Shown here one piece after another: positions 3,158 through 58,963 of a stretch of 64,000 nucleotides of DNA. Under the pieces are notes generated by a model, which worked only from the letters and a program-made list of their open reading frames with translations, did no database searches and was not told the origin of the DNA. The translations under genes were made by a program, and so were the position numbers. Every line of letters starts with the position of its first letter. The stretch's first letter is position 1. The stretch lies in contig OZ038439.1 of the NCBI GenBank assembly GCA_964036275.1, forward strand, positions 1,455,001 through 1,519,000. The letters run 5' to 3'. Origin of the DNA: Litoditis marina (Eukaryota > Nematoda > Chromadorea > Rhabditida > Rhabditidae).

Positions 3158-3159
3158 TT

Positions 3160-3170
3160 ATGTGCCGATA

Positions 3171-3171: not shown

Positions 3172-14679
<11,508 letters not shown>

Positions 14680-15907: not shown

Positions 15908-18900
15908 CTACTTACTGTAATAGACACGATAGTAGAGGGTCTTGGAACGCCAGAGCGAGAAGGAATTGTCGAACTTGAGAAGATAGACACCGCGACCGGG
16001 ATACACGTGACTGCCCGCATACACCTGGAATTAGAACACGCTACGAATTGAACAGGTCAATATTGATCTGAAAAAGTTCTATTACAAAACAGCCCTCCAT
16101 CCAAAGCAACCTTGAACGGTTGAAGTGAGGGTAATAGAAAAAAAACTATTTCTCGAGAACGCACTACCGTTACCTAAACGCAATTACCAAAACCAGTTGG
16201 CGACGGTATAAGACATACCACTATCCCAATACGGCGCCCTGATCAAACTACAAACTAGAAATGAATACAATCAGCTGACCTCTTCATTCTCTCACAACTA
16301 TTGTAATGAAGTCAAACACCACAAAATCGGCTATCTGATAAAACTACAAACTACCCTTATCAGCTGACCTCTTCATGACAGTCTCTCCTGTAGACGGGAA
16401 TGATCTCGTCCTGCTTCGGCTTATTCGGATCCTGCGCCGCGCGATGCTGGGGACTACCAGACTCCACGTCTCCTGAAAATACAAAGAATGGAACATAATA
16501 TTTCCTCCAATACCCTTCTCCTATTCTTTTATTCTATCTCTATCTTATTTTGAACCCTCCTCAGATGGATTACACTTACACAAAAACCACGTTGATTTCA
16601 AATTGAACCAAGTCAAAATCAAAATCAATTAAAATTTCTCTACTAAAGCCATTACTTTTTTGGTTGTGTGCTTGAAATGAACTAATGGTGAAAAATGACA
16701 AAATCGAAAAATGACAAAAAGAAAGGACCTCCTACATTTAATGCATAATCACGTGTATTTGAACCAACAACTAGCTCTTTTTTGAGGACCCCCCAGATTC
16801 CGCACCTTAACCGTTCATTACCCCCCCCCCCCGATACCGTAACCCATGACTTGATTACCCCTCCCAGTTACCGTAACCTACCACTATAACACCCCCCTAT
16901 AGATACCGTAACCCACCAGCCACTTGTCCGGGTGCGACCGTTCCCTCAGGCACGCCCTCATCGTACTCCTCCTCGTCGTCAGACTCACTCACGTGGATCG
17001 AAACCTGGAAGAATAAATAATAATGATGGTATCATTTATAGATAAAAACTAAATTATTCTCATGTGAACAAAAATAGGTTAAATCGGTTTGTAACAGGTT
17101 ACTTACAGGTTGTAACAGGTTACAGGACTAGCTTCATCATGGTCGCCTAGTACTGAAACGATTGCCCCACACGTCAGTTGAACGTTCTGTGGTAGATTCA
17201 AATGTCTACTAAAACTTAGAGTACCGTAAACCTTAGAGATCTAAATATCTAACATCTATTTCGTGTTTTCGATAATGAGTCAGCGCAGAGACTAATCTGT
17301 CTCACCATGAAATGACCCATTTTCAAGCTACAGTTACCAAATTTCAAAAAATGGTTACCCTAGTTAGCTAGTTGCCAACTTAACTCTCCCATAAAAAAAA
17401 CTGTTGCTGTATGATAATTGATAGTCGAAAAAATGACCAACCTGATTATTCTCGGCAATTGTCCACTCAAAGTAGACGCCGAATCCGATATCGTAGTAGT
17501 CGGTGGCGAACTCCCAGAAAAGACACGTTCCGTCTTCGTGGGTCGGCACACGGATCTACAATCGGGCCATTATCACTGATTGAATACATCACACAAAATG
17601 GTGACCAGCAAGTTGAATTTGCATTCGTAGTTGCGGCACTTTTTTCTGGCAGATGCACTAAAATAAAAGATTATCAACTAACGCTCAACTCATGAAAGAT
17701 AGATTAACGATCTGAGTAGATAGGGCACCCACTATAAAGTAATTAGCATTTCGAATACGCCAATGGCCACCTCGCCAATTCAATCAATACGCATAACATG
17801 TTTCCACGCTTTGAAATTTATCGATAAGACTCGGGACTATAAATCAATAATTATCATAATAACAATATTACTATAAACAATAAACATACCGTAACCGTCT
17901 CTCCGTGTCCCACTTTGATGATTCCCTCACTTCCCTCCTTCTTGATGTTGTTCTTGAAGTCCCCAATGTCCTCCCGATTCCACAAGGAGGCCGGGGCTAT
18001 CGAGGGGTTGGCTGAAACACAAAGGTCAAGGGTCGGTAGATCAAATGATTCGAAAAAGCTCTCGCTTACTGGTCCATTCCATTACGAACCGGGTTTCGTA
18101 GGAACAATCCGTTACCAAAAATCAGGCGCGAATAGCAAACAAAAACGGCGAAAGAGCATGAAGGTCAATTAGACTGCAGACAGTCTGAGACTGTCTGCGT
18201 CTCTCTGACCTGCACACTTTCTCGTCGAGAGCGCAACAAAGATGGCTTGCTAATTGGCAGGGAACCGTCTTGGTTAACGAGTACCCGGTTTCATAATGAA
18301 ATCGCCATTTTAAGTTGTAGTATTTTTGAAGCGCCTGCTCTTCAGTTCACAACGAGTGTACATGAACTCGTAAAACACATGAAAAGCCACTCTACATACA
18401 GTTCGTATTACTCGTCTCAAGCAGTACTAATTGAATATATTGGGGAAAAATGTACAATCGCCCCCCCCCCCACCCAACAATCACCCCCCTCGTGGTACTA
18501 TTACCCCCCACCTAATTGAAATCCCAGAAAAGTCGCGCGAAGGTGGGGGGTAATTGGTAAATGGATGGGGGGACATTGTACATCTTCGACAATGAACAAT
18601 CACCCCCCACAATACAAAATGGGGGGTGATAGTACATACCCGGAACTGATGAACAATCACCCCCACTCAACCCAAGCCTGCAGTAAATAAGCATGGTGTA
18701 TAATCGCCCCCCAAAAGTGGGGGGGCGATTGTAGTACGGGCCCTTTTCAACCCATTTTCGACCAGGGTGGGGGGCAAATGTAAACTACTCCCATATATTG
18801 ACCCGGATATGGTTGAAGGGCACAAACTACCATTATCGATCCTATACCCCGGCATTCGACAATATTTATATGTAATTGTTTTGTTAGCAAGCTTACAGCG

Positions 18901-21900
18901 CACAGAACATGCAATCAATATTGCAAACAGAACAGTGCCACATGCACGCAGCATTCACACTAATCTTCCTGTAGTTTGAGGCAAGGCGAAATGCTACCTA
19001 GTTAATCATAAACAGTGCTAACACAAAAACATGTAGCGGCAGGTGTCAGTGTTGTTAAGCACAATTAAGGAACAAACGAAGCCATTGAACTTAATTACCA
19101 ACCAGTGAACGGCCCAAGGCCCGGGTCATACTTTTCACACGGGCATTTCATGTCAGCGTGAAGCAATGCATTTCATGCGTTTTTTAAATATTTTTTATAG
19201 CTTTCTAAACTAAAAATGCGGGCGTATCACGCCGACGTAAGAAGTATGAACGGGGCCCAACACTATCACAAAACACAGCATGCCACAGAACCAAGAAGAG
19301 AAGCACAGCAACAACACATTGACAGTGTGCACACGTGTCACGTGAACATAAAACCTACAATGACAGAAGAGTCCCATCTGTGCATGAATGGAAGGCACTT
19401 CAAATAGAACAGGTTAACCCATTGGTGTTAGTGGAAAATGAGGTGCTCGGAGGCCGTATGCACGAGTATCCCAGCGCCCAGTTCGTGGCCCCTTTTTTGC
19501 TTTCCGGCCCGCCCAAATGTAAATCGATAGATGAAATAGTGAGGAAATAGAGACGCAGCTCGCAATCTGGGCGCCCGGATACTCGTACATAAGGCCTCGG
19601 TTGTCGCATATGATCGTCTCGTTGGTGTAATCTGACACTAACCTCATAATTTGCTCTTAGTTGTGAAAAACTAAACAATCTGTGTTAATGTGAGTGGTTG
19701 GAACTGTGAAACATAGATATGAAAGAATGAAGAACATAACGATCTGGGCACTGCTATCTCGTCAATAATTGGTTACTCGGAATGAGTTTACTCACAGGTT
19801 CATTTTTGAAAAACCACAGTTCTTAGAGAATCGGCTACCAGTTTATTTTCGCATAATCAGGTTTATTAGTAAATCGGTTAAAGGTTTGTTTTCGCGAATC
19901 TCAGAGTACGTATGCTCGAAGATCCTGGCACCTTCATCCCATCCTGCGTCTCCTGGAACATACGCTATTTCTCTGCTCTTACATCCCGCCGGGATGTAAG
20001 AGACAAGAAATAGTGAGGTAGAGCGAGAGACGCAGGATGGGATGAAGGTGCCGGGATCTTCGAGCATACGTACTCAGCTCAGTTCATTAAGGAACTGGTT
20101 GGTATCAGTTGATGTATTGTATGTAAAATGCACTTATTCATACATGAGGAGTGTACTACTACAGTACTACAGAAAAGGATAGGAAACCCAGGGTCATTCC
20201 GCTAAACAGAATCTAACTAAACACATCAATGCCGTGCTTCCAACTGCCATAGCCAGCTAGATTTTGAGATGAGTGTCGCGGATTCTACTAACAGAGGTAA
20301 CATAGAATGGTGCTTCGTAAATATAATGGCTTCCTTATTGCAAATTTCATAGTATAGTTATTTCGACTACTTAGATAAGTAATAACAGATAACACCAGCC
20401 TTTTCAGAGACTATTAGACAACAAGAATACCGATACTCAAGTATGAGAAGTACTTGTATCAACTTATTTGCTAGTGAATAACTAGTCTACTAGGCAGGTC
20501 GTCTCCGGCTTCCCAATACGACCCATTTGCTTGTAAAACTACGTGTATCCGCTTATATGAATCAATGAACAGAATTGTACCCTACTTGTACTTGTGAAAC
20601 TACTTGTATCCAGTTATTTGAATCAATGAAATCAATAAATAGATATTCGCGTTGTATAATCATAGTTATATGTTTCATAGTCATTAGATTCTGTTTTTCT
20701 GTTTCACTGTGACTTTGTTTATGTTTCATGTTTTACCACTCCTTTTACTCCCGTGTAGTATTACGAGTAAGCTCCCTTTAACTTGTAGGTAAGGTTTTGT
20801 CGCCTTACCCCTTAGGGGTTCTACATATTTGTTCACTTGTTTTCTGTGTTGTTAAGTTAGCACTTGTGAATGAATAAATAGATCAAAAACTAGTCTACTA
20901 ACAGGGCAGGTCGTCTCCGGGTTCCTCATCCGAGACGTCGCTGTCGTCGTCTCGTTTCCTCTGATCCTCTTCCGTTGGTTTTCGTTCCGACTCAGGGACG
21001 GCTGCTTCGGCCTGTTGAGCGTACACCTGAAACACTTATACGATAAGTTGAAGTTGAAGAGACATTTTCAATCAATATTTCCTGCTCTATTCGATATGTT
21101 TTGTATAGAAGGTTCTTCCACGCATTTGTAACCTATAGAGTGAGATTCTCTATTCTCTGCGCGTACACCTAAATAGATGTTTTGTCAGAAATGTAGTGAA
21201 TTGATGTGAAGAATGAGTGTTCACCAGGCTGCTAACAAAACCCTCTGCTCCCCACCTGCGCCATGTACTGTTGATAGTGTTGATCTTGCAGTTGGCGAAT
21301 GAGAGACGCTTGCTGAAACAAATGAATAATAACAATTGCCTCACTAAAATATACTAATACAATATTATCAAAAGTATTCATGAAATCGACTGTACTTTTC
21401 GGTTGTTCATCTTCGAATTTGCATGTTTCACATTCGTATCTTTTGGTTTTTCTCCAACTTAAAGTAGGACGATTATGTGGACCAATCCCGTGACATCGGT
21501 CCTTTAAACGGCAATTGAAAAATATATTGCGGTTTGAAGGACTGAAGCGTTGCGATTGGACCACATAATCGTCCTTCTTTAAGTATGTCTCAATCACCAT
21601 TCGGCGCGTGTTTTTACTCGTGTCCCATACAGATTAATATGGGAATGTTCACTTGAGATGAACGATGCAAGTTTCGCGACATCTATCTATTACGCGCCAA
21701 ATGTGTCCAACTAAGTATACAAAACAGTGACATATCCAGTGGCACTCCCCCTTTTGTTTCGTAAGCAAACGCGCGACAGCCTGGCGCCGGATAAACCTAA
21801 GCTCGTTCAAACAACTCTTCAAATGCGGCAAGCGGCTTATTTATAGTTGCCGATAGTATACATATATCTTCTCATATACAATCCTTCTCGTAACATTTGA

Positions 21901-24900
21901 TCAACCACAGCAAACAACTTACAGTTTATTATCTCCATTACTGTCATCCAAAAACTAAGAATTTCGGAAAAAGGAGAATTAGAATTGAGTCATTCACTAC
22001 ATAGTTCCTAAATAACGTTACTTTACAATTTTCTTATACTTATTCGACACTCAACTTGATAGACTTCAAAATTTTTGAATCGAGATGATCAATTGTTGCC
22101 TCGAAATTTCGAACAAATACAACCTATGAGATTCACAAAATTCACGACTAGAAACTTTTGCTACGATAACATCACGCGAAACATGTCATCCACCTTTATC
22201 TGTTGTTGTTATTTGTCTCGACCAGTGGAGATCAGCTGTTCTCGCGTCTGATCTCACAACACATCACGCAGCGGCTCTCGCCCCTCTCAGCTCCCGTCCC
22301 ATATTACAACGAAACGGGGCCAACCGGGCTGGCACAATACTTCCCTCTCATGTCCTATGACCCTCCCCTCACTTTCATAACAGCTGATGAGTTACCATAC
22401 AACACGTGCTATGTTCCAAACTGGCGTAATTGATAACTCTTTCAGAGCCAAATTTGGTTACTTCTAATGCGAAATCATGAAATTTAAGTGATATACCGGA
22501 AAAAAAGATTTATCTTTGCTGAGTAGTTGAACCTCCGATATACGGTGATTTTCCTTGCATTGTTGCAAGACATCACACCAACGTATATGTTGATTTTCGC
22601 CGATAAATCAGCATGAGACAACTAAGCAATGTTGAAATTCAATGTTTCTACGTTTTTCTATCCTGCAATCCTATTTATTTGTGATTCGGTTGTTTTTCGC
22701 AAACAGCCACTTTCCTTTCTCCTTGTTGTGGACAACCAAATATTTTGATCCTTCACCAGTTCAGAAGCGGGGAAATCCTGATCTTTCGCTTGGTGGAATC
22801 TGGGCGGTTCTCTGCTCTTATTCATTTAGATGTTCATTACGTTCCTCACACATCACTAAGCTCTGACACTCTATTTTACTCGTTTTTTGATCAAAATATG
22901 CCAATCATCGATTTTGCATCACAAACAAGCGCATTTGCTGAGTTTGGCGGTGAGGGCTCCCTCAACTTTTCTGATTTAGACATCGTTATGAGAGTAAGAG
23001 CCTATTCCATCCCTCCTTCTCTCATGCCACGCACAGTCAATACATTGCCCTTAGCGCAATTATGATTGATATTTGATAACAATAGCGGCATAAGACGTGT
23101 CATGAAGCAGCCCTATGACCAACTTCAGACCAACTTCCCTATGAGCATCTATGGACACCCTCAACCATGACTGCCTTTCCCAGATATTCCTCAATTTGAA
23201 CTTCATCGACCGCATCAAACTCGAACAAGTCTGTCGCATATGGTATGAAGTTCTACAGGTAAGACTTCTAGAAAAAAAAACCGCCCAAAACGCCGCTAGT
23301 CAAAAACATTACCACCTTCAAATAGTATTCCAAAACCACAACGAACCGAACTAAGAATGTCACCCTGTTGTCTTCACGTTATACGTGACTATTTCATCCA
23401 AATTACGTCCAGTAGACTTTTTCACTCACAACACTTCTTAACTCTCGAAACTTATCCACTTTCAGCAGCAATCGACGTTTGCAGATACCACGCGACTCAA
23501 TGTAGCCGACTTTCTGTTCAACACCAGCACAGAGTACTACCAACAGGTATGGCGCGATGAATAAGAAGTGTCAAACATGTCACACCTCAAACACGTGGAA
23601 AGAAAAAGTTCAACATTGCTGAAGTTGATTTGCTTTTACTTCCACTGTTTTCCACTATTTATTTGAAAAAATCAATCACTACTTTCCAGGAGAGCATCCG
23701 CTTCGCACCAACCGTAATGGGAATCGTGGAACGCTGCGGAAAATATGTTCTCGAGCTCACGTTCGGACAACGTTGGCTCAAGGTTTCGCAGCCAATTGTC
23801 GACTGTCTCGCGAGGTAAAAAAATTCACTCCCTTACACGAGTAAAGTGCTCATCCAGTTCGAAAAAGACAACCGAAACCCTGTCAAGCCGCGAGAAGCCT
23901 TCTCTATTTATGACGTAGTAGGCATGCTTTAGGGTTGTTAAAAATAAACTCGAACTCGAAAAACTCGAAATAAACTCGAAATTTCGAGTTTCGAGTTCAA
24001 CTCGAAACTCGAAAAACTCGAAAATTTCAGAACTCGAAAAACTCGAAACTCGAAAAACTCGAAATTTCGAAAACTCGAAAAACTCGAATTTTCTGAAACT
24101 CGAAAAACTCGAATTTTCTGAAACTCGAAACTCGAAAAACTCGAATTTTTTGAGATTGAAACTCGAAAAACTCGAAATTTTCAACAAAAAAACTCGAAAA
24201 ACTCGAAATTTCGAGTTCTGAGTTCAACTCGAAACTCGAAAAACTCGAATTTTCGAAAACTCGAAAAACTCGAAAATTTTCAGAACTCGAAAAACTCGAA
24301 ACTCGAAAAACTCGAAATATCGGAAACTCGAAAAACTCGAAACTCGAAAAACTCGAATTTTCGAAAACTCGAAAAACTCGAATTTTTGAAAACTCGAAAA
24401 ACTCGAAATTTTCAACTCGATTAACAACCCTAGCATGCTTGCAAATGTTTGATAAACTACTTATTAGTTTATTCCATAAACATTATACTTACAGCAACTG
24501 CCACCATTTACGAGTACTCGACTTTGGCGCTGTCATTCTGAACGCCGACATCTCTATTCTGCTTCAACGGGTGGCTCCACAATTGGAAGAATTCTCACTT
24601 GAAGAAACCAGTTGGATGGATATAAACTCTGCCAAAAAGGCCAGTTTTATCGCAAATGAGGTCACTTCTCGAATTCTGCGAAACCAACGTGATTCCAAAG
24701 ACACGTCTGACCACGTTTCCATGTTATAGGAGCGTCGTAGTTTGTATTATTTACAAGCGCGCTTTTAACAGTGTTGCCAGCACTCAAAAACAATCTCGTC
24801 TAGGAGATGTGGTCAACCAATTATTGTTGTTACGCGCAATCCATCAGTGTTCTCTCCATCGCCCACACAAATCGGTAGTTGAGCAAACAGTGGACCCAAC

Positions 24901-27900
24901 GACAGAGACGCGTTAATCCAAACACATATCTCCGCCGCTTTTCAGGTTCAAGACTACTTCAAGGAGATGAAGCGATTGAAGAGGCTAAATCTACGCTCGG
25001 CGATGTTCGAACTGGATAGACTTGATGAGCTTCCGAGTGGTTTAAGGTATAACAGAAAAGGATGTCAATCCCATTTGCCTTAGACCGAACTCTCTCTCTC
25101 TCTCTTGTCTCAGTTAGATGATACATAGGTGAAAGAATTGCTCACGTGAAACGTGAAGAGCCAACGACAATGATGAGCTTCACCTTTTCAGGTTTTTCTC
25201 TGATGTATTTCGTCTGACGTGACAACAAACCACAATCTCAACTACTCCCATGGAGCAATTCCTATATTGACACATTTTCAGATATGTCCAGCTCAGTGGC
25301 GCTCGGCCCTTTCCCGCCACAGTTCTGAAGCGATTTCTCCAAGAACAACGAGAGCTAGAGGAGCTCAACCTCGCTCCCGTTCCTGTGTTAAATGAAGATA
25401 TTCTATCCGCTATCGGACAACTCAGTAATCTACGAATACTTCATCTGGGATTCTGTCATCAAGCCGACTTTCCCTACGACTCCCTCGCGGGTCTAACCAA
25501 CATTCGCCAGCTAAGGCTCGAGGTGGTTATTCAGTATTGTTATTATCATTTATCAAATCGTAAATCAGGCAGCTAATCCACCAAGAGACGGCTTGAAGTC
25601 AGAGAGATAACAAAACCAATACAATTCATCAGCCTTTAATATGATTTGTACCAATCTAAATGCCCATATCCCCTTCAATCACAATCAAATGTTTCAGTGC
25701 CTACCCGGTCTGACTGAGGGCACCCTACGCCTTCTTCTAACCTCAATGGAACACCTTGAGAGTCTTTCAATGAGAAAATGCCGGAATATCCGGGATTACT
25801 CCTCTCTATCCCTCTGTACACAACTGACCACGCTCGATATATCGGATACGATACAATTCTCCGATGAAGACTATCTAACTCTATGTACATTCGGACGATT
25901 GAAGAGTCTGTCGCTAACCAATTGCCTGAATCTGACCACTCGCGGGGTCAACATGGCACTCACCAGGTGTCAGCTACGTGACGTAAGTGCGACAACAATA
26001 CACTTTCGTGGGTACACAAAACCATTCATCGATCTACATAATTAACTTTTCTCGGAAATTCAAACCAAAAATTACCTAAATGAAGACTTCTCCAAGAAAA
26101 TTATTCACGTTCAAATGTGCGCATAACTGATAGACGTGCCAATCTTTCTCAAATACGGAGCAAGGTCTAACACATAGATGCCTTTGGAAGCTTCCACTGG
26201 TTCTAGCGACTTTCCCGCCCAAATCAACCTCAATTCTTGCAGATAGTCATCACCAGATGTGCGATGGTTAGCGATGAAATGATGTACATGTTGGCATCTA
26301 CCCAACGGGAGCTGGAGACCATATCTCTACAGGAATGTGGTTCCATTACCAGGTCAGACGCCGCGAAAAAAAAGAGAAACTAGATAATTCTGGCGTTCTC
26401 TAGTGACTTCCATGAAACTAATCGAAACTACTTTATGTCATTCAATCTTTCTGAGAACGATTCTTATGCGAATGGACATGTCGAGCCAACACCATAGATG
26501 CACATGAATTTTTCACATTGGCGCCCCACTTAGTAAATACCGCAGAGTTCTCGAATTGTACAAGACTATTCTTTCAGCAAGGGCTTCTCCTCCCTCGCCT
26601 GGCTGCGGAATGTGTCCCTGCTCAGGGAGGTGGACGTTTCTCGCAACAAGAACGTGGACGACACCGTTGTGCTCAGTCTGCATAATGCTCTGACGATGGC
26701 CGATCGCCGGAGCGCCAACCGGAAATACGGGGCATTTGACAGTCCGCACAAGGACGAGAAACCAACGGTAGGCGAGAGGCATAATCATATGTATACTCTC
26801 AAGCCAAATGCACATCAAATCACCTAGGTACTCCGATGGCTTAGTACCACAGGGTGCTCGTGAAAACACATTGGAAGCGAACCACGTCACCACTGCAAAC
26901 TACGCGTACATATCAGCATAATCACGCCACTCTTCAAATGTCATGTTTCTCTATTAAAAACGTAAAAGCCCACATGTTGCTCACAAGAATAATTTTCCGA
27001 GGTTATCTGACCATGGGTGAAACGTCAATATTTCCAGAACATGACACTATTCTTCCTTGCTGCTAACTACGAGTTCAGTCGAAAGCGACCACTTCTCAAA
27101 TGCAAATACTTGATCACCGATCACATTCCTTCATTTCAGAAGATGATAATGTACATATTCGACACCAGCATCTCTAGTCTAGTCGGCGAGCAGGTGGAGG
27201 ATCTCATCATCCTCTGCTGACCTCATCAAATTGCGGTTACGTCACTGTTTTCTTTTTCTGACAACCACACAATGTCTGTTTGTGCCATCACTATTTGCTG
27301 AAAGCCACTCAATTTTTCCTGTGACTTCTTTTCTGGCAACCATCTATGGCCCGCGTCATACTTTTTAAGTGGACGTTAAACAAGGTATGTCATGCGCATT
27401 GATTCAGTTGGCGTACCGTGGCGTAAATTGATAGGCATGTTTTATTGAGAAAAACGCGAAAGTAATACATCGACGTACAAAGTATGAACCAGCCCCTATT
27501 TCATCGTTATAACCAACTCATAATAATGCGAACCCTTCAGCTGCCATGTTACCTCAAAGATGTACAAATGTAAATTATTATTACATTATAACCATAATTC
27601 GTTCATTTATTTATTTCCCATTGTACAAATCACTACTAATTATCGATGCTAATATTTACTAAGATGCCATACTTTTTCAACATTAGCTTCGAGGTTTATT
27701 GTATAGGAACGGGTTGAAGATTACAGCAGAAATACACGTTTGTACCGATGTGCCTTAATAAAAGTTTTATCGAACGAGAATCTTGAATACAAATACGGTC
27801 AGTTTATCGGGTTCCCCCAAATTGAAGTTTCACCAGAGGCCTGAGCGAAAATTCCACATCCACATTTCCTTCGCATTAGAGTAATCCCTCCACCTTTGCG

Positions 27901-42795: not shown

Positions 42796-45700
42796 TCATT
42801 TCTTCACTTCCTGACTGCCACTTTTGTCCGATTTCTTCGCCTTTTTTCTTCTTCTTGCAACATTTTCACCAGCCTTTTTCTTATCTTCTTCTGCTTTCGG
42901 ATTGGTCACTTCTGGAAAAAGTAAATTTGTCCCTGCAAAAGAAAAAAGATTTTGCAAAAATGTTGTTTTGATAAGAGGAAACACACTCAGAAAACTACGT
43001 TTCTGCGAATTGTTCCAATTGGAAAACAGCTCGGAAAATGTGAGTACTGTAGAATACAAGTTCCATAGAAAATCTTGGACTGGTGAAAACACCGAACGAA
43101 CACTGAAAAATCCCCGAATAATAATTAACGGGGATCACTACCAACTTCTGAATGCGGTGAAGGTTTTCATAATTATTTACATCGAACAAAAGCCAAGTTC
43201 CTGGCCTGTTTAATGTATCGTGAATTTGTTTGGCTATTCGGGCGTTGTGGAAAAAGAATAGAGTTTTCCATGGAACTAACTTCTAGGTGCGGTGAAGGTG
43301 CCGTTAACTGCCATTTTGATGAGAGTCAGCTTATTGTTTGAGTTCACGTTGAGAACTGCGCCGGCTCGAGCCCCAGAGTGGCCGGGCGCGGACCAGAGAG
43401 AGAGGACCGAGGGACCAACGAACTGGAATGGAGTGGGTTTACTGTGGATAGGAAGAGGGGAATGAAAACTATTATACTATGTGTACACCTACAAAGGTTC
43501 ATCTAACGATCCAACTACAAATACAACAGGTTTAAAATGCTAAAAATGGGGTTATATGAGTGGGTACCTATTCGAAACACGGAAAACTGGTTTAGTAACT
43601 CCTGTTATATCGTAGGTCGCATTGTGTATAACTTTTTTTCCCCCCACTCGTTGAAGTTTGACCCCCCACCATTGAAGTTCTACCCCCCGCCGACTCAGGT
43701 GGGGGGTAAATAGTAAATGTCGAAGTTGAATTTTGACCCCCCCCCCCTCTCCTAGATTTTCAGGTTTTAGCTTGGGTGGGGGGTTGAAGTGCTACGGGGG
43801 GGGGACCCAACTAAAGTGGGGGGCGATACTTCATTTTCCCAAGGCGCGTTTTCCAGAAAGAACTATACTGGATATCCGTCATATTGTAGTCATACTGTAG
43901 GAGGCTCAATGGAAATCAAAACGACTATAAGTATACCTGGTATCCGTAGGGAGCGGGGTTTCGGGCTCTGACCAATAGGGTAGTTTTCAGTCGAACCAAA
44001 GCATTTGCGACCTCCTCACTTGACGAATCAAACATATGACCGCGGGAACCTGGAAAATGCTCGAAGTAAACTATAGCAGAAGTAAATTGAATAGTCACGT
44101 GAAGTTGGCATTCTAATGTCGGTAAAATGGTATACGTCTTGAGGAGACGCAGGCTTGTTGTGGCGCCGTGTTACAGCCTGCGTCTCCTCAAAACATATAC
44201 TATTTTACGACCCGGACGCGTCGCTTAATTCTCCGTGTGAATAGTCTAACACCGAGACTTTAACGTTGAAAGTAAAATGTTCCTCAACCACTCCACCTGG
44301 AACGGGTCTATTCGCCAATCCGGCCGTGTTGTAAATGAGATCCGCTTCCAGTGTAGTTCCCTTGACAGCGCGCAGTGGACGGGCAATGTTCGAAATCTGC
44401 TCTCGGTCCTTCACCTGAATAATATTTGATCTTTGATCTTTTACATAATCAATAACTGCCAACTAGTAATTCATAGGTAATACTACTCAATAGATTCGAT
44501 AGGGCACCCTATTCTTACTATTTACGGCACACCCATCCTTACTAAAAGTCTCTCTACTACTTTAACTCTTCTGAAAATACATCAAACAGTTTAACTGGGT
44601 AGGCAGTGTATAGGATTTGTGTAGCCTATCCTGTCGTGTTTGTAGTTTGATCCTGTTCTATTTCGTTTTCATGACATGTATTGAGATCAAACTACAAAGA
44701 GATACGGTCACTCCTTATATTGTTCAACGCATAATTTCGGGTACCCCCTCTGTGGCGAAAATGACTCTGTTTGTTGCTCTTACCTGCTGTGTTCGTAGTT
44801 TGATCCCGGCATTCAAAATAAACGGTGCCTTTAAAGGGTGTACTATTCAACGTACCTTCTCGGGAACCCCTCCGTGAGCACAGAACAGACGATCGGCTAC
44901 AATTGCAGCCAACGGCAGCTGGGTACACGCCTTCTGAATAACCTCCTGCAGGGCCTCGGAAATACGGAGGGGAAAACGATTCTGAAAGAGAAAATGGCCG
45001 ATCCTTTCATAGAATGGAAGCGGAGTAGTAGCAAATGCGAACCAATCTTCATTTCTCATGCGAAATGCGAACTTTAAAGTCGATAAAATGTTCAAAAAAA
45101 AGTCGATCGAATGTAAGTGAAACTGCTAATATTTTCGATTTTGAAAACTAATACTTGATTTTGAAACAATCAAATATTAGTTTCGATTAGAAATTCTCCC
45201 TTTGAATATTCAATTTGACCAGTTGGGTTCAATTGAAAGGGCTTGAGTAAAATGTTAAAAAAGGTGTAAAAAACGAGCTTACCCCAAGGGGAACAGGGAC
45301 CTCTTCTCCTTCAGCCGATCCACGTAGAATATGCACATGGGCGGGACAGACCAGCTGGAAAGAAATAAATATATCATTAACGGCTATAGTCCTATAGTCC
45401 CTTTTCAAACTGAGACTCCTACAGTATGCTCATAGAACTTTGAAACCGTTTCGACTCGACCGTTGAGATGCGCTGGAAAGAGAGAAAAGAGAGAGAACGA
45501 GAAGCATCAAGTAGATAATCCGAACCATTCTCATGTATACTTCGACAGTGTGCCAATAAAAAAATCACCAAATGCTATTTCGAAATTAAGTACAAATACA
45601 AGTTTCAGGTCGCTACAGTTCCAAAAATATTATCGGACAAGTAAAATAGAGTCGAGAAACAGCTCTCATAAAGTTTCACGCTCAGAAACAGTCCTAGAAA

Positions 45701-48700
45701 ACTACGAATATGTAATGTGGGAGCATCAGTTGGAATGGGGTCAACTATACCTTAAGGGCGAAGATGAGTGCAATCGTCTCGAGCGAATCGGGCGAGTTGA
45801 CCGAAGTGAGACCACCCAAGAAGAGAAGTCGCGTCTTGGGGGGCCAGCCGATCAGATTCAGCCAACGGAAAAGATCACTAAAAGCAATTGTATTTGAAGA
45901 AAAGCATACAAATTCACTTTATTTAGTGAAGCCCAGCCCACCCTGCTGTGTATGTAGGTTCATCCCGTAACTTTTCGGTTCATATTTGTGAGCGTATCGT
46001 GATCAACTACAAAGAAGGTCTGGTCATTTCCCATATGCTGAAATGCAGAAAACCCACTCTTATCAGGGGAAAACTGTTGAAGCCAAAGTTAGCTAAAGGG
46101 AGGGGGGGGCACAAGTATAACCATCCCTAGTTCTCGTTGAAAACTGACACATACCTGCCTACAGGACAAAGGTATAAACCATCAAATTCAACAGGAAAAT
46201 AACTTACGCCTAGATGTACATCAGCCGTAAGTGAGGCCGTTCACTAATCAAAAGAAAAGGGGGGGGGGGGCAAATGTATAAACCATAAACCATTTTTTCC
46301 AAATTTGAAAAGGAACTCACGCATAGCTGCCCTCGATATTCCCATAGATCCAGATATCGGCCGGGAGGGCGAGGAGACTCGGCTCGTTTCCCATACGGAC
46401 ACCCGCAGAGTCAAACATGGCGGCCAGCTGAGAGGGAAACATAGAAATACAGAATATAAAATATAGAACATCGTCAAAAGTTTGCACACTGTACACTGTT
46501 TCACCATTCGATCCCCTCTTACAGCAATCTCACCATTACGTTTTTCTAATAAACGGACGAGTTTTCGCAGTGACAGTATAGTTTGATTGTAGTGACAGGG
46601 TCGAGAAATAAAACCGAGTTTTAATTCTTGGCATTAACTTTCAAAATTTCAAAAGTGAACTTGAGAGAGTGTCGGTCGTACTGCGAACTGTCGTGAATTG
46701 GACTATACCTCAGCGGCGTCGAAGTCAAAGAAGAAGGGTCCGTGCTCGATCATTCGTTGCGCCAAATCTGTTTTGGTAGTTGGATACGTTCGCCTGACCT
46801 GGAATCAAAGAGCGATCCCTATCCTAGAATTAAATTGAATAGTGACGTAAAATTAGCAATCTAATGAGGAATCGTGCACTTTGTCATTGCACGTTTCTGA
46901 GTTTTGCTGTGTGTTTAACGTGAGAACTATAGTATTACCAAAGAAATACTATAGTTCTCACAGTTTTTATGAGGGGAGTACCGTTACTAGCACAGCGCGA
47001 GCGAGCAAAAATTCACCCATCTTATATGAGGGGAACATTGACTTTTTACCCCCACCTTTCTGAAATTGTATTGCGTTTGGGGAATTGTTGTGTGACCCCC
47101 CCCCCCCCCCCCACCGGGGGGTGATAATTCATATAAAGTTGGGGGGAGATACATCAATTTTCCCCAAATAAGTTGAAAAATCAATCGGTAGAAGAAATAT
47201 AAATGACGAAGAAAGTTGAAAAACAATGAACCTACCGTCCGCACGGCCTTGCTATCCTGCTCGAACACGTAGATCTCCGGATTGATACTAGTCTCGTCCT
47301 CTTCTATCGTGTCGTCCTACACAAATACTTGAAATGTTTTTCTTTCATTTTATTTACAACTTATTTTTGATTGGTTTTCGCTCTACCACAAACACTTGCA
47401 TACTCTTACAATCTAGACTGTAGTTTGATCACAAAAGTTGAACGGGAAGCAGCACGATAAAACTACAAACACATCCGGATATGGCAAATACAATCCAGCA
47501 CATTCAAGATGACTATAGTGCGCACATTTCCCAACTGGAGTGGGCACCTTACCAATGAAATTCTCCCAGTTGCCTGGAATTCTCCCAGTTGCCAGAAAAA
47601 TTGCCAAAAAGTTTTTGAACATGTTGAAATACTTCAAAACAATAGAAATTTATGTGAAGGGTTCTTCCCCTTTGTTATGATTTGTATTCAGTAAAACTTT
47701 CTGTAAACTATGTTTTCTCTGAATAACAGTTTTAAGTTTTTGGCACGCAGCCAACGAGTCCTGAGTACGTATGCTAGAAGATCCCGGTACCTTCATCCCA
47801 GCCTGCGTCTCCTCAAACATAATGCTGTTTTATCTGCTCTCACATCCCGCCGGGATGTAAGAGACGAGAAATAGTGAGGCAGAGCGAGAGACGCAGGATG
47901 GGATAAAGGTGCCGGGAACTCCTAGCATACGTACTCAGTTGGCGAATGTGAGCACTATACACGTAGAACGTTTGACCGCGTGACCTTTAGAAGCGAGCCA
48001 AACAGAATGAAGTTCCAGAAAAAAACCTGACCCCAACGCATTTTCGATATGACCTCATGTGTCTAAGAGTGTCCTGCATTTCGCGAAGACTCGGAAACTC
48101 CGCCTTCAGCTGCTCTTTCCGCCATTTTTCCTGTGAAAGAAGTATAATTTCAATTCGGGAAACAGGCCAGTTCTATCCGCCACCTCTTTGGAGAGATTGA
48201 GCGTGCACATTCTCAGTTATTGAAGTTCCATAGAATCTAACGACAATGCAGTTCTATTGAGAGAAACATTTGAATAAAGTAATCAGCGAATGGTATTCTG
48301 AATGTATACTAGATTCATCGACCATCCCATAAGCGTGTAGTTTGATCACACGACTATCATCAGCGGTCCTGACCAACCTTCATTCCGAAAATGCACGGTC
48401 GGGGAGTCAGCCTCTCCGGTAGTTCGGCACGGATTCTACTCTCGGTGGCACGGCTCTTCAGGTATTCCTGCAATCAACGAGCCAGTTATTAAATCAATTC
48501 GCTTGAACGATATACCAACACTACAAAGCAGGACGATTATGTGGACCAGTCCCGTGTCAACGGTCCTTTAAACTGCGATTGAAAAATGTATTGCTGTTTA
48601 AAGGACTGAAGCGTTGCGATTGGACCACATAATCGTCGTTCTTCAAGGTGAATTAGAAGGTATTTCAATCACCATTAACTTGTTCGACAAATTTGGCCTT

Positions 48701-50849
48701 GAACGACGGGAATGATGTGCGAGATTTAAAGGAGACCGGAACACAACTTGAGCAGAGGTTTTGTTTCGAGCTGCTTTCAACTGTATTGAGATCAGAGAGC
48801 ACAGATAACTCGTATATCAGTTTGATCAGTCCACGTGACATTTATATGACCATGCCCGCGACACGCAACGCGTCCAGTCAAAAGTAGGATACAGCAGCTT
48901 AACGAGAAACCATGTTGCTCTCCGGTCTTCTTTAACCGTTCAGACCACTTTCAATAAGGTCTCTTCACAATCTGCTAGCATACTGCTGAGGTGGTGATCT
49001 CATGAGCTCTCCGATTGTTGTCGATCCTCCACTTCTCAAAATGATCAGCCAGCTTGAGAAACTACGCTCTGAGCTCTTTTTCTCGGAGCAAAAGACAATG
49101 AATCACAATTCACTGTGCTATAGAAGGAGGATGGGGGGCTAAAGTATAGTGAGTGCCAAATTTATCAATTTCTGTCTCTCGCCGAAATCGAACCTGCGAG
49201 AAAAGATTTGTAGCAGGGCGCTAAACATTGCATTATTAGAGCACATACCCGGCAATCTTTGGAATCGAAAACATGTGTGGCAACACAGCGGGAAGTTAGA
49301 TATACAGTACCCTCTCGCCTTTCCGTTCGGCGACGACTATATATAATAGTAGCCACCCACCAAAAACTGTGGACTGATGCACAGCCAGATGATGATGAGC
49401 CAGAAACACAGCGGAAACGCGTTCTTCGTAGACTCAGCCCACTTGTCATCGCGTTTTGTACGAACCACCTGGAATTCGGATATCGATTTATTGATTCATT
49501 GATTTTTAGTTCTAGAAGCTGAGTAAATATAAGTCATATTCCTAGGTAAACTTCATTCCATACTCTTTGACAGGGTGACATTCAGAGTATACAATGGCAC
49601 ATGGGCGGTGGAATAGGTGATAAAACTGGGAGAAAAATTACCGAAATAATCGGTTCCTCGATCTCGTTACAGTAGTCATCATTGCAACAGGTCAGGGCAC
49701 CATGCAACTCCTTCTGAAAACAGAACATGGTATCGATTCTCGAAAATCTAGTTCTAATTGATTTGTGTTTTCACCGGTAAACACATCGAACGTGCTGGAA
49801 CTCGTCTAAAATGCGTGGAATTGAAATAAATCTACAAAGACAACAGATGATAAAAAAAATTCGAGAGGAAAAATAAGTAAGTGAATACGGTGAAAGTTTT
49901 ACATGCGAACTACAACTAAAGTACAGAGATCAAATACAAACACAGCAAAAGAGTATGCGCGACCCCTATACTTCGGACCTCAAGAGAGGATCGAACATTA
50001 GACACATCAGAACAATGTCCTCTCATTAGTGAATAACCCCCCCCCCCCCGTACACCATCGACAGTGATATTGTTGTAGGGTAGACAGTGTCTGGAGGACT
50101 TTTTATGCGTACAACGCTCTACATGCAAACTACAACTAACGGAGGGATCAAACTACAAACACAGCAGAATTATAATAGAGAACAAAAACATACTCCATCG
50201 ACGGTGATTTTGGTGTAGGGTAGATAGTATCTGTCGTGTGCTTTGCACTGCCAGGGGAGCTCCTTGGCATCCAGACAGGTATAGACGTCCCGGCCCTCCA
50301 CGTCAGCTGTTGAACTGGAAATAGAAAGTTTAAATAATGTCTTTAAAGAAGGACGATAATGTGGACCAATCTCGTGTCAACGGTCCATTTAACTACAATT
50401 GAAAAATGTATTGCAGTTTAAAGGACTGAAGCGTTGCGATTGGACCACCTAATCGTCCTTCTTTAATAAGTTGCAATTTCCTCCTAGACTAATGAGTAAA
50501 CTGTTCTTCTGCAATTTTTTTTGTTATTTTTTTTGTTTACTATTTTGATTAACCCACATAAGTTAGGCAGAAGACCAGCCTCGCCACTGTTCTAAGTTAG
50601 GTAATATGTACAAAAACTTACGGAATGACCAGATATACGCAGAAAGGAATCACATTGTTGAAGAGATCGATCTTACACTTTTTGTAGTCAAACATTCCGA
50701 TGGAATCACGGTGGGAGGCACATATTATACGGTCCTGCAAGAAATTATGTTCGTAGGAAAAAGGATGAAAGATAGAGAACTTAGAGCTGAATTGAAAGGG
50801 GAAAGAGAATGGTAGAGGGATCAAGAGAGGGGGGAGAGAGGGAGGAACA

Positions 50850-50910
<61 letters not shown>

Positions 50911-51002
50911 GAGAGAGAGATCCGTACCTGTATATCATCATCGTCGCCGGCTCCACATGTAACCGCAGCGAAGAAGAGCAGGAAGATTTCCACCTTTCTC
51001 AT
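42796..51002 (-). CDS. Receptor-like transmembrane protein with a PP1-type pseudophosphatase domain, 17 exons
   Basis: Predicted 589 aa. Exons: 51002-50928, 50734-50622, 50314-50194, 49713-49642, 49468-49361, 48467-48378, 48130-48032, 47316-47236, 46798-46709, 46427-46321, 45877-45751, 45354-45283, 44981-44856, 44414-44297, 44049-43937, 43422-43281, 42911-42796. Residues 1-18 form a signal peptide. Residues 26-127 are a cysteine-rich ectodomain (C30, 45, 57, 76, 86, 112, 113, 118) ending in CCNDDYCN, the signature of Ly6/activin-receptor three-finger folds. A helix at about 144-163 (FPLCFWLIIIWLCI) spans the membrane. Residues about 284-552 align with PP1-type phosphatases: WPPKTRLLFL, SLETIALIFALK, HVHILRG, LPLAAIVADRLFCAHGG, LSLWSAP. 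The motifs GDxHG, GDxxDRG and GNHE are replaced by GNIEG, GGLTSVN and GSAE, and RAHQ by RARN, so only one of six PP1 metal ligands (His421) remains. The tail is Lys-rich. Activity is therefore unlikely; a scaffold or signalling role is inference. It could still be two adjacent genes. Confidence 0.75.
43140..43172 (-). repeat. Intronic copy of the 3' edge of receptor-like exon 16
   Basis: On the minus strand ACCTTCACCGCATTCAGAA|GTTGGT repeats the true exon end ACCTTCACCGCACCTAGAA|GTTAGT at 43281. It lies 135 bases further into the intron and keeps the donor. Confidence 0.75.
43625..43842. repeat. C/G-tract fold-back array
   Basis: Runs of C (up to about 12) and G (up to about 10) alternate with TTGAAGTT-like spacers. 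The right end GGGGGGCGATACTTCATTTT resembles those at 18435 and 47140. Confidence 0.8.
44130..44206. repeat. Palindrome with GAGGAGACGCAGGC arms
   Basis: GTATACGTCTTGAGGAGACG and the complement CGTCTCCTCAAAACATATAC flank a short centre. Receptor-like intron 14. Confidence 0.8.
44636..44699. repeat. Short inverted-repeat element, GTAGTTTGATC family
   Basis: Arms TGTTTGTAGTTTGATCCTG and GAGATCAAACTACAAAG. A half copy follows at 44789-44806. Confidence 0.85.
45947..46016. repeat. Diverged short inverted-repeat element, GTAGTTTGATC family
   Basis: Ends CTGTGTATGTAGGTTCATCCC and CGTGATCAACTACAAAGAAG are a degraded copy. Confidence 0.6.
46838..46919. repeat. Truncated MITE, TCACGT...CACGTGACT family
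   Basis: TTGAATAGTGACGTAAAATT through TTTGCTGTGTGTTTAACG matches the 61070 copy. It breaks off exactly where the perfect hairpin at 46920 begins. Confidence 0.7.
46920..46961. repeat. Perfect 17-bp-arm hairpin
   Basis: GTGAGAACTATAGTATT and AATACTATAGTTCTCAC are exact complements around an 8-base loop. It lies in intron 8 of the receptor-like gene and is not one of the other families seen here. Confidence 0.9.
47040..47170. repeat. C/G-tract fold-back element
   Basis: A C20-type run followed by GGGGGGTGATAATTCAT and GGGGGGAGATACATCAATTT, ending TTCCCCAAAT. Same group as 18435 and 43625. Confidence 0.75.
47416..47470. repeat. Short inverted-repeat element, GTAGTTTGATC family
   Basis: Arms CTGTAGTTTGATCAC and GATAAAACTACAAACAC. 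Confidence 0.7.
47764..47938. repeat. ~175-base near-perfect palindromic element
   Basis: Second copy of the 19902 element, with arms GAGTACGTATGCTAGAAGAT and CTCCTAGCATACGTACTC and centre ACATCCCGCCGGGATGT. Confidence 0.9.
48530..48640. repeat. ~110-base palindromic MITE, GGACGATTATGTGGACC family
   Basis: Intron 5 of the receptor-like gene, with arms GGACGATTATGTGGACCAGT and ATTGGACCACATAATCG. Confidence 0.9.
49135..49352 (-). repeat. Dispersed repeat with tRNA-like part, abutting a 5' splice site
   Basis: Inverse copy of 1555-1745. It contains a GGTTCGATTTC-type B box and ends TATATAGTCGTCGCCG on the minus strand about 9 bases after the donor of receptor-like exon 5. Its TAG gives an in-frame stop if that intron is retained. 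Confidence 0.6.
50030..50094 (-). repeat. Intronic copy of the 3' edge of receptor-like exon 3, with poly-C tract
   Basis: On the minus strand TACCCTACAACAATATCACT-GTCGATG|GTGTAC repeats the exon end TACCCTACACCAAAATCACC-GTCGATGGA|GTATGT at 50194. It is followed by a C12-type run on the + strand. Spacing is about 140 bases. Confidence 0.8.
50350..50460. repeat. ~110-base palindromic MITE, GGACGATTATGTGGACC family
   Basis: Intron 2 of the receptor-like gene. Arms GGACGATAATGTGGACCAAT and ATTGGACCACCTAATCGTCC. Confidence 0.9.
50815..50925 (+). repeat. GA microsatellite with G10 run
   Basis: A (GA)n tract and a G10 run that end 3 bases from the 5' splice site of receptor-like exon 1. Most of intron 1 (50735-50927) is therefore simple sequence. 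Confidence 0.9.
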
Positions 51003-51708: not shown

Positions 51709-52969
51709 TTACAGCGGTGCGCATTCTCCCTTGCAGATGGCACCCTGTCTCTCCTTCTGCTTGGCGATCAGGTCATCTCCGACCTTGTAGGTCACGCGAC
51801 CGATTCCGTCCAGAGTTACCTGCAAATTTATTGAATTAGGATTACGGTGTTCACAAATTTCTGCTGTGTTCGAGGTGTGACGTCAGTCAGAGGTACCTGA
51901 AAATGCACTACTTGGAGGGGGTACGGTATTCATGAACTTCTGCTGCATTTAAAAGGTAACAATGTTAGTAAATTTCTGCTGTGTTGAAGGTGCGACTTCA
52001 ACCAGAGTTACCTGGGAATATACTGGTTGGCATACAGTATCAGCAATCTGCTCCAGTGTACTATGACATTACTCAATTCCAAATTTTGTATGTTGAGTAC
52101 GACGCGGGTTCCCATAACTCGAAGTTGTGAACTCGATTTGACAACCACCTAGCCCTTATATAGTTCGCTTCACGTAAACTTATCCCTCTACAGTAAAACA
52201 TTGAATCTAAAAGGCTGTTCACTGGTTAGATAAATGCCCTTGAATATCCAGAAGATTACTGTAGAAAGTCATCGATTGGTGAAACGGAGTATACGCAGCT
52301 GCGTGAAATTCCTTCCAAAGAACTGCGCTATCAACATTGTAGTCTGACCTTTGTAGTCTGAACGGGCTTGCCGTTCTCATCGAAAGTCGCGATTTCCCAG
52401 TCCTTTAATCCACACTCGTCGGCCTTCTGCTGGAATCTGTTCTTCACCAACTTCTTCGAGAAAGTCCATCTAAATACAAACTATTATTTACGTTTTTAAA
52501 CACGAACTGCAAGATAACACTATTTGTGACTGTAATAACTTCTAGATTGAAAGAATCTAAATACAATAAACTTTTTTGAAGGTAGTGTCTAAGATTCCAA
52601 CTTCAACTCGAAAAATGACGAAAGTTTTCGATTGTCGAATCACTAAAAACCAAACTTTGCCTCTTCTCTCCAATGGAAGTATGGCAGTGTCTTGGTTAGG
52701 TATATATTGTTACTATTTTAGTCTGCATCTCTTCTACAAAGACTTCAACAGTACACATACAAACTTTCCCAGAACCGAAACCATAACTTTTTTTAGAAAA
52801 AACATCTAAAAACCAATGGTCCACTATAAACCAACTTTTCGCTCTTCTTTCCATTGCTAGCGGTGACTTGGGCAGAGAACTTTTTGTCTGTGTCCGACTT
52901 CACGTGGACAATGATGTCACAGGCCAGGGCCGCGCACACGATACACAGCAGAAAAAAAATGACGCGCAT
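51709..52969 (-). CDS. Small secreted protein, 3 exons, nematode-type family not named
   Basis: 121 aa. Exons 52969-52836, 52469-52349 and 51819-51709; phases close. It begins with a clear signal peptide ([16 protein letters not shown]), cleaved before or near CDII. The mature part is a ~105-residue Lys-rich domain with three more cysteines (in DECG, AICK and GECAP), the strings [18 protein letters not shown] and [15 protein letters not shown], and no membrane helix. The ATG is one base after a CTTTCAG acceptor on the minus strand, a good spliced-leader site. AATAAA follows the stop by 37 bases. I do not recognise a named domain; the look is that of small secreted nematode proteins. The acceptor of exon 3 has two diverged extra copies in intron 2. 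Confidence 0.85.
51880..52016 (-). repeat. Two intronic copies of the acceptor and start of secreted-protein exon 3
   Basis: On the minus strand CATTTTCAG|GTACCTCTGACTGACG (51880-51905) and TTCCCAG|GTAACTCTGGTTGAAG (52000-52016) resemble the real edge ATTTGCAG|GTAACTCTGGACGG (51819). Each keeps AG. Confidence 0.75.
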
Positions 52970-58855: not shown

Positions 58856-58963
58856 TAGGACGATTATGTGGACCAATCTCGTGTCAACGGTCCTTCAAAC
58901 TGCAATTGTGTATTGCAGTTTAAAGGACTGAAGCCTTGCGATTGGACCACCTAATCGCCCTAC
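58856..58963. repeat. ~108-base palindromic MITE, GGACGATTATGTGGACC family
   Basis: Shorter loop than the other copies (ACTGCAATTGTGTATTGCAGT). It lies 45 bases before the acceptor of the gene at 59008. Confidence 0.9.

Follow-up and report, generated by a model that had tools for sequence, protein, structure and literature searches.

The window, which is the entire 64,000-nucleotide stretch of Litoditis marina DNA analyzed here (contig OZ038439.1, positions 1,455,001 to 1,519,000), contains on its minus strand, from 51002 to 42796, a gene whose 17 exons join without a stop codon to encode 596 residues. The predicted protein consists of a signal peptide, a three-finger-like domain with eight cysteines, a single membrane helix, a linker and a PP1-like domain, in that order (Table 1), and all 16 introns have GT-AG ends. 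An earlier reading made from the sequence alone (the sequence-only reading) had joined the 17 exons in frame, and the gene model bears it out together with three further details. Both sides of the junction between exon 5, which encodes the helix and ends at 49361, and exon 6, which begins at 48467, are in phase 0; no start codon opens exon 6, in which the first in-frame Met is residue 29; and the linker, proposed to be about 120 residues long, measures 100-130 residues, since the start of the PP1 part can be set either by its N-terminal helix (residue ~264) or by where the database match begins (residue 295). Scans of the window against Rfam (gathering threshold) and for tRNAs returned no matches. 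A spliced-leader pattern had no match within the window, a result that speaks for the window alone.

Table 1. Exons of the window gene and loci of the related genes.
Feature	Position	Strand	Content	Basis
Exon 1	50928..51002	-	Start codon plus signal peptide (MRKVEIFLLFFAAVTCGAG...), residues 1-25	Gene model; hydrophobic N-terminus
Exon 2	50622..50734	-	Three-finger domain, Cys 1-3	Gene model; homologous exon in C16 paralog
Exon 3	50194..50314	-	Three-finger domain, Cys 4-5	Gene model; C16 paralog comparison
Exon 4	49642..49713	-	CCNDDYCN end of three-finger domain	C16 paralog 63% identical
Exon 5	49361..49468	-	Stalk plus membrane helix (FPLCFWLIIIWLCISPQFL), residues 128-163, phase 0 end	Gene model; hydropathy
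Exon 6	48378..48467	-	Predicted cytosolic juxtamembrane segment, phase 0 entry, first Met at residue 29	Coding score
Exon 7	48032..48130	-	Linker, 99 nt, as in C16 paralog	Gene model; C16 paralog
Exon 8	47236..47316	-	Linker, 81 nt, as in C16 paralog	Gene model; C16 paralog
Exon 9	46709..46798	-	Shared motif RMIEHGP..FDF, then start of PP1-like domain	Gene model; paralog comparison
Exon 10	46321..46427	-	PP1-like, GNIEGS in place of GDxHGQ	Sequence match
Exon 11	45751..45877	-	PP1-like, GGLTSVN in place of GDYVDRG	Sequence match
Exon 12	45283..45354	-	PP1-like, RGSAE in place of RGNHE	Sequence match
Exon 13	44856..44981	-	PP1-like, HGG retained	Sequence match
Exon 14	44297..44414	-	PP1-like	Gene model; C16 paralog
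Exon 15	43937..44049	-	PP1-like, R at metal ligand H248	Residue comparison
Exon 16	43281..43422	-	PP1-like, SAPGH in place of SAPNY	Residue comparison
Exon 17	42796..42932	-	Lysine-rich tail and stop	Gene model
C16 paralog	C16:8.92 Mb		Upstream CC..CN exon; full frame, 17 exons, 561 aa, same domain order	
C17 paralog	C17:1.76 Mb		Upstream CC..CN exon; full frame, 18 exons, 622 aa, same domain order	
Paralog	C16:39.30		Upstream CC..CN exon; full frame, 18 exons, 603 aa	
Paralog	C16:29.84		Upstream CC..CN exon; full frame, 18 exons, 584 aa	
Paralog	C18:8.20		Upstream CC..CN exon	
Paralog	C4:6.83		Upstream CC..CN exon	

Exon 6 follows the longest of the 16 introns (intron 5, 893 nt), with a stop in the same frame three codons 5′ of the acceptor of the exon. 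The stretch preceding the first Met has a score of 0.331 bits per codon, which is coding-like and above chance, because not one of 1219 open 28-codon segments taken with overlap from introns reaches 0.25 bits per codon. Compared with the C16 paralog, the same stretch has 21% identity and a dN/dS of 0.97 over 28 codons, i.e., no constraint on the amino acids. The poorest of the 16 acceptors belongs to exon 8 (GTGTAG); its counterpart in the C16 paralog is of equal length and has a normal acceptor. A gene boundary in intron 7 was suspected because of this weak acceptor and of a possible first exon at 47622-47536, and it was rejected when exons 7 and 8 were found to match those of the C16 paralog in length and phase.

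The PP1-like domain

The PP1-like part scores 22.7 bits against Pfam Metallophos (cutoff 21.5) and matches the PDB phosphatase chain 5jpe with an E-value of 2.6e-26 over ~240 residues. Five of the six metal ligands are replaced (D64N, H66E, D92G, N124S and H248R), with H173 alone kept, and the general acid (H125A), D95 (D95S) and R96 (R96V) are also lost. Because of these replacements, the domain is, judged by its residues, a PP1 homologue and not a working phosphatase, in agreement with the pseudophosphatase postulated earlier. Between the window gene and the C16 paralog, the NG86 dN/dS of the domain is about 0.29, with dS near saturation, and this comparison of codons shows that the dead domain is under constraint relative to its nearest paralog. 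In the RVxF pocket, positions 169, 243 and 264 remain hydrophobic throughout the dead branch (the four copies without a full set of metal ligands), and position 257 is F in the window gene, L in the C16 paralog, P in the C17 paralog and F in L023; it is R in the three intact members. The sequence-only reading suggested that the protein could be a decoy or a scaffold for PP1 regulators at the membrane; the pocket, a candidate docking site, is retained in part.

The ectodomain and the membrane helix

The ectodomain of the window protein has eight cysteines and ends in CCNDDYCN. The cysteine order of three-finger domains (8-10 Cys with a CC....CN end) is present in the models read, including those of the window gene and of the C16 and C17 paralogs. 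Against the Pfam family Activin_recp, the window protein gives an E-value of 0.46 as a precursor and of 0.23 as an ectodomain (12.9 bits, cutoff 20.9), and the C16 paralog gives 0.087 as a whole protein and 0.0036 as an ectodomain (18.7 of 20.9 bits); the ectodomains of the C17 paralog, L024 and L025 have no match, and none of the five ectodomains searched reaches the cutoff. A PDB search with the window ectodomain returned just complement factor H at an E-value of 0.065 or worse, which was taken as chance, and the L025 ectodomain had no match there. The domain had been described as Ly6/activin-receptor-like. The three-finger part of this description stands on the eight cysteines and their order, and the "activin receptor" label, with scores below the Pfam cutoff, is weaker than the three-finger label.

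Signal peptides were judged by a hydrophobic N-terminus and helices by hydropathy. The window protein has a hydrophobic N-terminus, one helix (Kyte-Doolittle peak of 1.96 over 19 residues from residue 145) and a net charge of +2 following the helix, as expected from the signal peptide and single helix of the sequence-only reading. Across seven family members the hydropathy of the helix ranges from 1.96 to 3.24, and the net charge following it ranges from 0 to +6 in the six members computed. Five of the seven have an N-terminal hydrophobic exon or signal peptide; L021 and L023, whose models are partial, do not include the N-terminus. These features predict a type I single-pass topology for the window protein, for which we propose a cell-surface location.

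Paralogs in the genome

A genome search with the PP1-like part of the window gene gave 19 matches in 8 loci, including the window, and all 8 were examined. In seven of them a CC..CN three-finger exon of the same strand is located upstream, at a distance of 2-3.3 kb (Table 1), the sole exception being C2:18.81. None of five more distant PP1-type loci has such an exon within 4 kb upstream, and the pattern occurs in the background at a rate of 1 match per 174,595 strand-bases. All six metal ligands, H125, D95 and R96 are kept in each of three members, L024, L025 and L021, although the phosphatase domain of the last was assembled by hand from predicted pieces. Activity and PP1-type regulation of these intact members are not assured, because the alignment of PP1 R221 is uncertain in all three and F257 is replaced by Arg. 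The four dead copies appear to have one shortened loop in common, and the dead state therefore appears to be old.

In a tree of 15 PPP domains, the seven family members are separated from 5jpe and seven other loci of this genome with a support of 0.981, and the dead branch, with the window gene among its four members, has a support of 0.998; this tree left out 8 of 14 control loci, which covered 150 or fewer of the 242 positions. Two trees disagree on where the dead branch belongs: it stands beside L024 and L025 (0.783) in the first tree, which left out 6 of 11 control loci (one strand was read) and three more for low coverage, and the three intact members group together (0.654) in the 15-domain tree. 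We consider it likely that the seven genes share one origin. The models point to a family with seven or more members that have the three-finger, membrane helix and PP1-like architecture; of the seven, four are dead and three have all metal ligands.

Gene finder results

The gene finder used is crude and prone to over-joining. Its initial settings produced absurd models of 75-99 exons, which were discarded, and the later penalties were picked by inspecting the three genes themselves. Trained on two genes, it reproduced all 17 exons of the C16 gene without error at two of the five penalties and split the window gene inside intron 7 in four of five settings, in some also after exon 9 or 11; in the fifth setting the split fell after exon 9 only. 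With four training genes, window exons 5 and 6 stayed together in all ten settings, and 13-14 of the 17 exons were matched where one main gene formed; a break after exon 9 appeared in one setting, and exon 1 was separate or missed in eight. Under a stiffer gene penalty, the window gene and the neighbour upstream came out as one fused gene in five of five settings. The C16 gene, fused to the next gene, was matched at 15 and 16 of its 17 exons inside genes of 33 and 24 exons, the C17 paralog was split between its CC..CN and helix exons in both settings, and L025 was split inside the PP1 domain in one of two.

Before L024 served as a training gene, its three-finger, helix and PP1 exons formed one gene in three of three settings. 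In the same runs L023 was joined in all three (false exons included), L021 in all three from the ectodomain to the middle of PP1, and L025 in one. The reference exons of L024 and L025 come from the gene finder, except for the first exon of L025 and certain hand choices; therefore, the agreement of 17 of 18 exons for L024 is no independent test.

Discussion

That the window gene encodes one protein and not two was argued earlier from a single gene; six paralogous loci now speak for the same conclusion. We hold with strong confidence that the three-finger domain, the helix and the PP1-like domain belong to one protein, and with good confidence that this architecture and the family hold together. 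The one-protein reading is supported by gene models.

One gene might nevertheless have two products, the full-length protein and a short, intronically polyadenylated ectodomain, membrane-anchored or GPI-like, that would act as a decoy. A short form lacking the phosphatase is possible in the paralogs because the intron after the helix exon contains AATAAA in both the C16 and C17 paralogs and because an in-frame stop follows the donor of the helix exon by 1-9 codons in the four dead-branch loci. The matching intron has no AATAAA in the window gene, L023 or L021, and we regard this alternative as fairly unlikely.

A single membrane protein need not be a surface receptor; the ectodomain could face the lumen of a secretory or sperm organelle, with the PP1-like part serving as an anchor or scaffold. 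Nothing in the sequence fixes the compartment. In single-pass proteins, three-finger domains are usually found at the cell surface, which argues against a luminal position, and we consider the latter improbable. What favors it is that recent metallophosphatase gene expansions in nematodes, gsp-3 among them, are linked to sperm (PMC8480184).

Far less probable is a pair of adjacent genes, i.e., a three-finger membrane protein ending in VGGYYYI* at 49340 and a trans-spliced PP1-like gene starting near 48467 or later. The in-frame stop 7 codons past the helix exon of the window gene, the length of the boundary intron and a helix with a short hydrophobic tail, which would suit a GPI- or tail-anchored protein, agree with this arrangement, in which both genes would have stayed adjacent in every copy. 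The 893-nt intron contains no AATAAA, and no plausible first exon was found within it: among 13 ATG candidates that could feed exon 6, even the best is one codon long. At the junction of the helix exon and the next exon, the phases agree in all four dead-branch loci although they differ between loci (0/0, 2/2, 2/2 and 2/2, the match in L023 being tentative owing to a weak acceptor). The intron of L021 falls within the helix itself, and the hydropathy rises from 1.64 to 2.48 once the exons are joined; in L024 and L025 the helix and 10 or more following residues of the cytosolic segment share one exon. The union of exons 5 and 6 in ten of ten gene finder settings points the same way, subject to the over-joining of the finder.

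That the dead branch consists of unexpressed, decaying relics of a receptor phosphatase is hardly credible: catalytic residues are lost and the sequence has changed fast (38% overall identity between the window and C16 copies), but three 17-18-exon frames are complete without a stop, the dN/dS of the dead domain is about 0.29, and the shortened loop apparently common to the four dead copies indicates an old state.

Under the one-protein reading, receptor-type serine/threonine phosphatases seem to be present in the genome, because three of the seven members keep all six metal ligands. The pseudophosphatase receptor of the window seems to be one branch of a receptor-phosphatase family, which goes beyond the earlier single-gene reading. 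In the mechanism that we propose, the ectodomain would bind an extracellular or neighbouring membrane protein, and in the intact members this binding would place or switch a PP1-type phosphatase at the membrane. Having apparently lost hydrolysis, the window protein may act as a co-receptor or decoy, either by forming a pair with an intact sister or by retaining substrates or regulators; we offer this role tentatively and with some doubt. Ligand binding, the phosphatase activity of the intact sisters and the pairing are predictions.

Animal receptors include serine/threonine kinases, tyrosine kinases, tyrosine phosphatases and guanylyl cyclases, and a receptor with an intracellular PPP-type serine/threonine phosphatase would supply a missing class. 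We know of no described receptor that combines a receptor-like ectodomain with a PP1-type phosphatase, and none was found in the literature searched, which lacked most subscription journals. The chances seem evenly balanced that the family represents an undescribed class of enzyme-linked receptors, in which one fusion joined a three-finger ectodomain to a PPP phosphatase and gave rise to working and old pseudophosphatase branches. If so, the family would parallel the activin receptor kinases as their phosphatase counterpart and the receptor tyrosine phosphatases as their serine/threonine counterpart. Direct switching of PP1-type dephosphorylation by an extracellular ligand would become testable, and the dead branch would be a natural pseudophosphatase receptor set alongside working sisters.

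Comparison with known systems

Known PP1 is a soluble catalytic subunit. The window gene resembles PP1 and other PPP phosphatases (5jpe, 3e7a and others) over ~240 residues, and L024 matches PP1 chains with E-values between about 1e-52 and 2e-49, whereas a calcineurin construct that aligns with it in two stretches gives the lowest value (9e-59). Unlike in PP1, the family domain is placed behind a membrane helix, and the window copy lacks five of six metal ligands, H125 and D95/R96. With the activin/TGF-beta receptor serine/threonine kinases, the window protein shares a signal peptide, a small cysteine-rich ectodomain with a CC....CN end, one helix and a cytosolic enzyme domain; however, a PP1-like domain stands where those receptors have the kinase, and even the best ectodomain, that of the C16 paralog, misses the Activin_recp cutoff.

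Receptor tyrosine phosphatases carry a cysteine-based PTP domain, and dead domains also occur in that class. Members such as CLR-1 and DEP-1 of C. elegans are likewise single-pass receptors with a phosphatase inside, but the catalytic fold is unrelated to the metal-dependent PPP domain of the present family. ErbB3 and BAMBI are receptor pseudoenzymes that act via partners. Their folds are unlike that of the window protein, for which pairing is a proposal, but a receptor without an active enzyme that depends on a partner is the mode of action we propose here.

The window gene and its PP1-like domain

The sequence-only reading had seventeen exons joining in frame, and this holds: with GT-AG introns throughout, they encode 596 residues without a stop codon. 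The PP1-like part scores slightly over the Pfam cutoff for Metallophos and matches the solved phosphatase chain 5jpe (E 2.6e-26). Compared with PP1, in its usual residue numbering, the metal ligands are substituted at D64N, H66E, D92G, N124S and H248R, H173 is kept, and the general acid H125 is replaced by alanine. Because of these replacements the domain is predicted to be inactive and should not be expected to catalyse, which bears out, at the level of sequence, the earlier proposal of a PP1-type pseudophosphatase. The dead domain remains conserved: a comparison with the paralog at C16:8.92 Mb over 286 codons (47% identity) gives a dN/dS of about 0.29, a value made imprecise by a dS of 1.81.

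The ectodomain is assigned to the three-finger type by the order of its cysteines. The eight-cysteine order of the proposed Ly6/activin-receptor-like domain stands, but the name activin receptor is withheld because none of the five ectodomains compared reaches the Pfam Activin_recp cutoff (best 18.7 of 20.9 bits).

Features of the window and related loci of the same genome
Feature	Location	Strand	Details
Window gene	51002-42796	minus	signal peptide; eight cysteines ending CCNDDYCN; membrane helix; linker of 100-130 residues; PP1-like domain; lysine-rich tail
Apparent decayed partial exon 3 copy in intron 3	50050-50104	minus	SRHCLPYNNITVDG vs DRYYLPYTKITVDG, E 0.14
33-base repeat, six copies	3534-3566, 8410-8442, 21532-21564, 48596-48628, 50416-50448, 58918-58950		0-3 mismatches; 0 copies expected
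Protein kinase, open frames	3808-7341	plus	Pkinase E 2.3e-8, hand-joined; resembles the casein-kinase-1/tau-tubulin-kinase group
GOLD_2 domain protein, open frames	16366-18012	minus	E 4.5e-41, hand-joined; resembles Golgi protein GCP60/ACBD3
Leucine-rich repeats, open frames	about 24400-26780	plus	under Pfam cutoffs
Small secreted protein, open frames	51709-52933	minus	directly upstream of window gene; no Pfam match at E 0.01
C16 paralog	C16:8.92 Mb		17 exons, 561 residues; full read
C17 paralog	C17:1.755-1.765 Mb		18 exons, 622 residues; full read
L023	C4:6.83 Mb		fourth dead copy
L021	C18:8.20 Mb		helix cut by intron
L024	C16:39.30 Mb		model, 603 residues
L025	C16:29.84 Mb		model, 584 residues
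Exons predicted by the gene finder behind C16 paralog	L018, about 1650-3870 (C16)		resemble a multi-pass chemoreceptor-type protein

The decayed copy in intron 3 is perhaps a relic of exon duplication. In the repeat copies of introns 2 and 5, by reading, the end is an inverted copy of the start, as in a small inverted-repeat element.

One protein or two genes

The exons might instead belong to two genes side by side, one for a three-finger membrane protein and one for a PP1-like protein. Intron 5, between the helix exon and exon 6, is the longest of the gene, and the acceptor of exon 8 is very poor; both features point towards two genes. However, intron 5 is flanked by phase 0 on either side, as had been noted from the sequence, and contains no AATAAA; moreover, of 13 ATG candidates none would serve as a credible opening exon of a separate PP1 gene. 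In the stretch of exon 6 ahead of its first methionine, codon use, scored with a table built without exons 5-8, also exceeds that of all 1219 overlapping open intron segments. The same part shows no visible constraint against the C16 paralog (21% identity, dN/dS 0.97, 28 codons), which may fit a juxtamembrane spacer. Within the window, the evidence leans towards one protein.

A simple gene finder kept exons 5 and 6 in the same gene in all ten settings. When L024 was left out of its training, it joined the three-finger, helix and PP1 exons into a single gene in three of three settings for L024 and in one of three for L025. It also produced false exons, split the C17 gene ahead of the helix exon and, under a stiffer gene penalty, merged the window gene with the adjacent gene upstream (5/5); we give its agreement little weight.

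Paralogs in the same genome

What decides the question, as far as sequence can, is the paralogs. When the 262-Mb assembly, in which the window lies on contig C17, was searched with the PP1-like part, the best candidates scored comprised 19 matches spread over 8 loci, of which the window is one; because only best candidates are scored, member counts are lower bounds. A frame with CC, two to six residues and CN lies upstream on the same strand at seven of the eight loci, the exception being C2:18.81 Mb, an ordinary-looking PPP gene. As controls, five 4-kb stretches, out of 28 selected, that precede other PP1-type loci were scanned, and none has the pattern; in non-family DNA it turned up once in 174,595 strand-bases. 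When the L025 ectodomain plus linker served as the query, matches among the best candidates scored were confined to L025 and L024.

Both the C16 and the C17 paralog run from signal peptide through three-finger domain, helix and linker to PP1-like domain. Exons 7-11 (99, 81, 90, 107 and 127 nt) and 13-16 (126, 118, 113 and 142 nt) are identical in length between the C16 and window genes, and the 81-nt exon confirms window exon 8. Where helix and linker meet, the window gene has phases 0/0 and both paralogs have 2/2, matching within each gene although single exon lengths vary; in L023 they are 2/2, with a weak acceptor. In L021 the helix itself is interrupted by an intron with good splice sites on either side, and in the L024 and L025 models the helix and the following cytosolic residues share one exon. 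The last three loci are difficult to square with two separate genes, and we regard that arrangement as very unlikely. The single protein proposed earlier is thus supported, and the architecture together with the family is, in our judgement, very probably correct.

In the intron after the helix exon, an AATAAA lies behind an in-frame stop in the C16 (L017:6099) and C17 (L016:4515) paralogs, and a short form lacking the phosphatase part is possible from both. The PP1 domain of L021/L030 (C18:8.2 Mb) is divided by an intron of several kb, inside which open frames appear, by reading, on the opposite strand.

L024, L025 and L021 retain D64, H66, D92, D95, R96, N124, H125, H173 and H248; the alignment at R221 is uncertain. 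A tree built from 15 PPP domains (seven family members, 5jpe, C2:18.81 and six more loci of the genome) separates the family from 5jpe and the other genome loci with support 0.981 and puts the four dead domains on one branch (0.998); with fewer controls both supports are 0.998. Just past the RGNHE position, the four dead domains appear to have a shortened loop in common. The window protein may, as proposed earlier, be a scaffold that binds PP1 regulators; the RVxF pocket of the dead domains is partly retained, and position 257 is Arg in the intact members. A common origin of the family is likely, and its simplest history would combine a single fusion with a single loss of catalysis, with long-branch effects possible.

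Discussion

Anatomy and conservation are what the sequence supports directly. The hydrophobic N-terminus, the helix and the positive residues after it suggest a type I protein at the cell surface, whose three-finger domain would bind a ligand. The three intact sisters, having retained the catalytic residues, would be active phosphatases, and the window protein, with catalysis lost and the domain conserved, may act as a co-receptor or decoy.

According to one study, nematode metallophosphatase genes, including gsp-3, underwent recent expansions linked to sperm (PMC8480184), and another describes GSP-3/4 as a PP1 phosphatase located in the sperm pseudopod in C. elegans (PMC4400581). In 5.39 million open papers, phrase searches found no mention of a receptor or transmembrane Ser/Thr phosphatase, and the titles and abstract openings from further searches showed no protein of this kind. 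On this ground we claim the predicted architecture as a new variant of the enzyme-linked receptor, and there is a fair chance that it represents a whole new receptor class.
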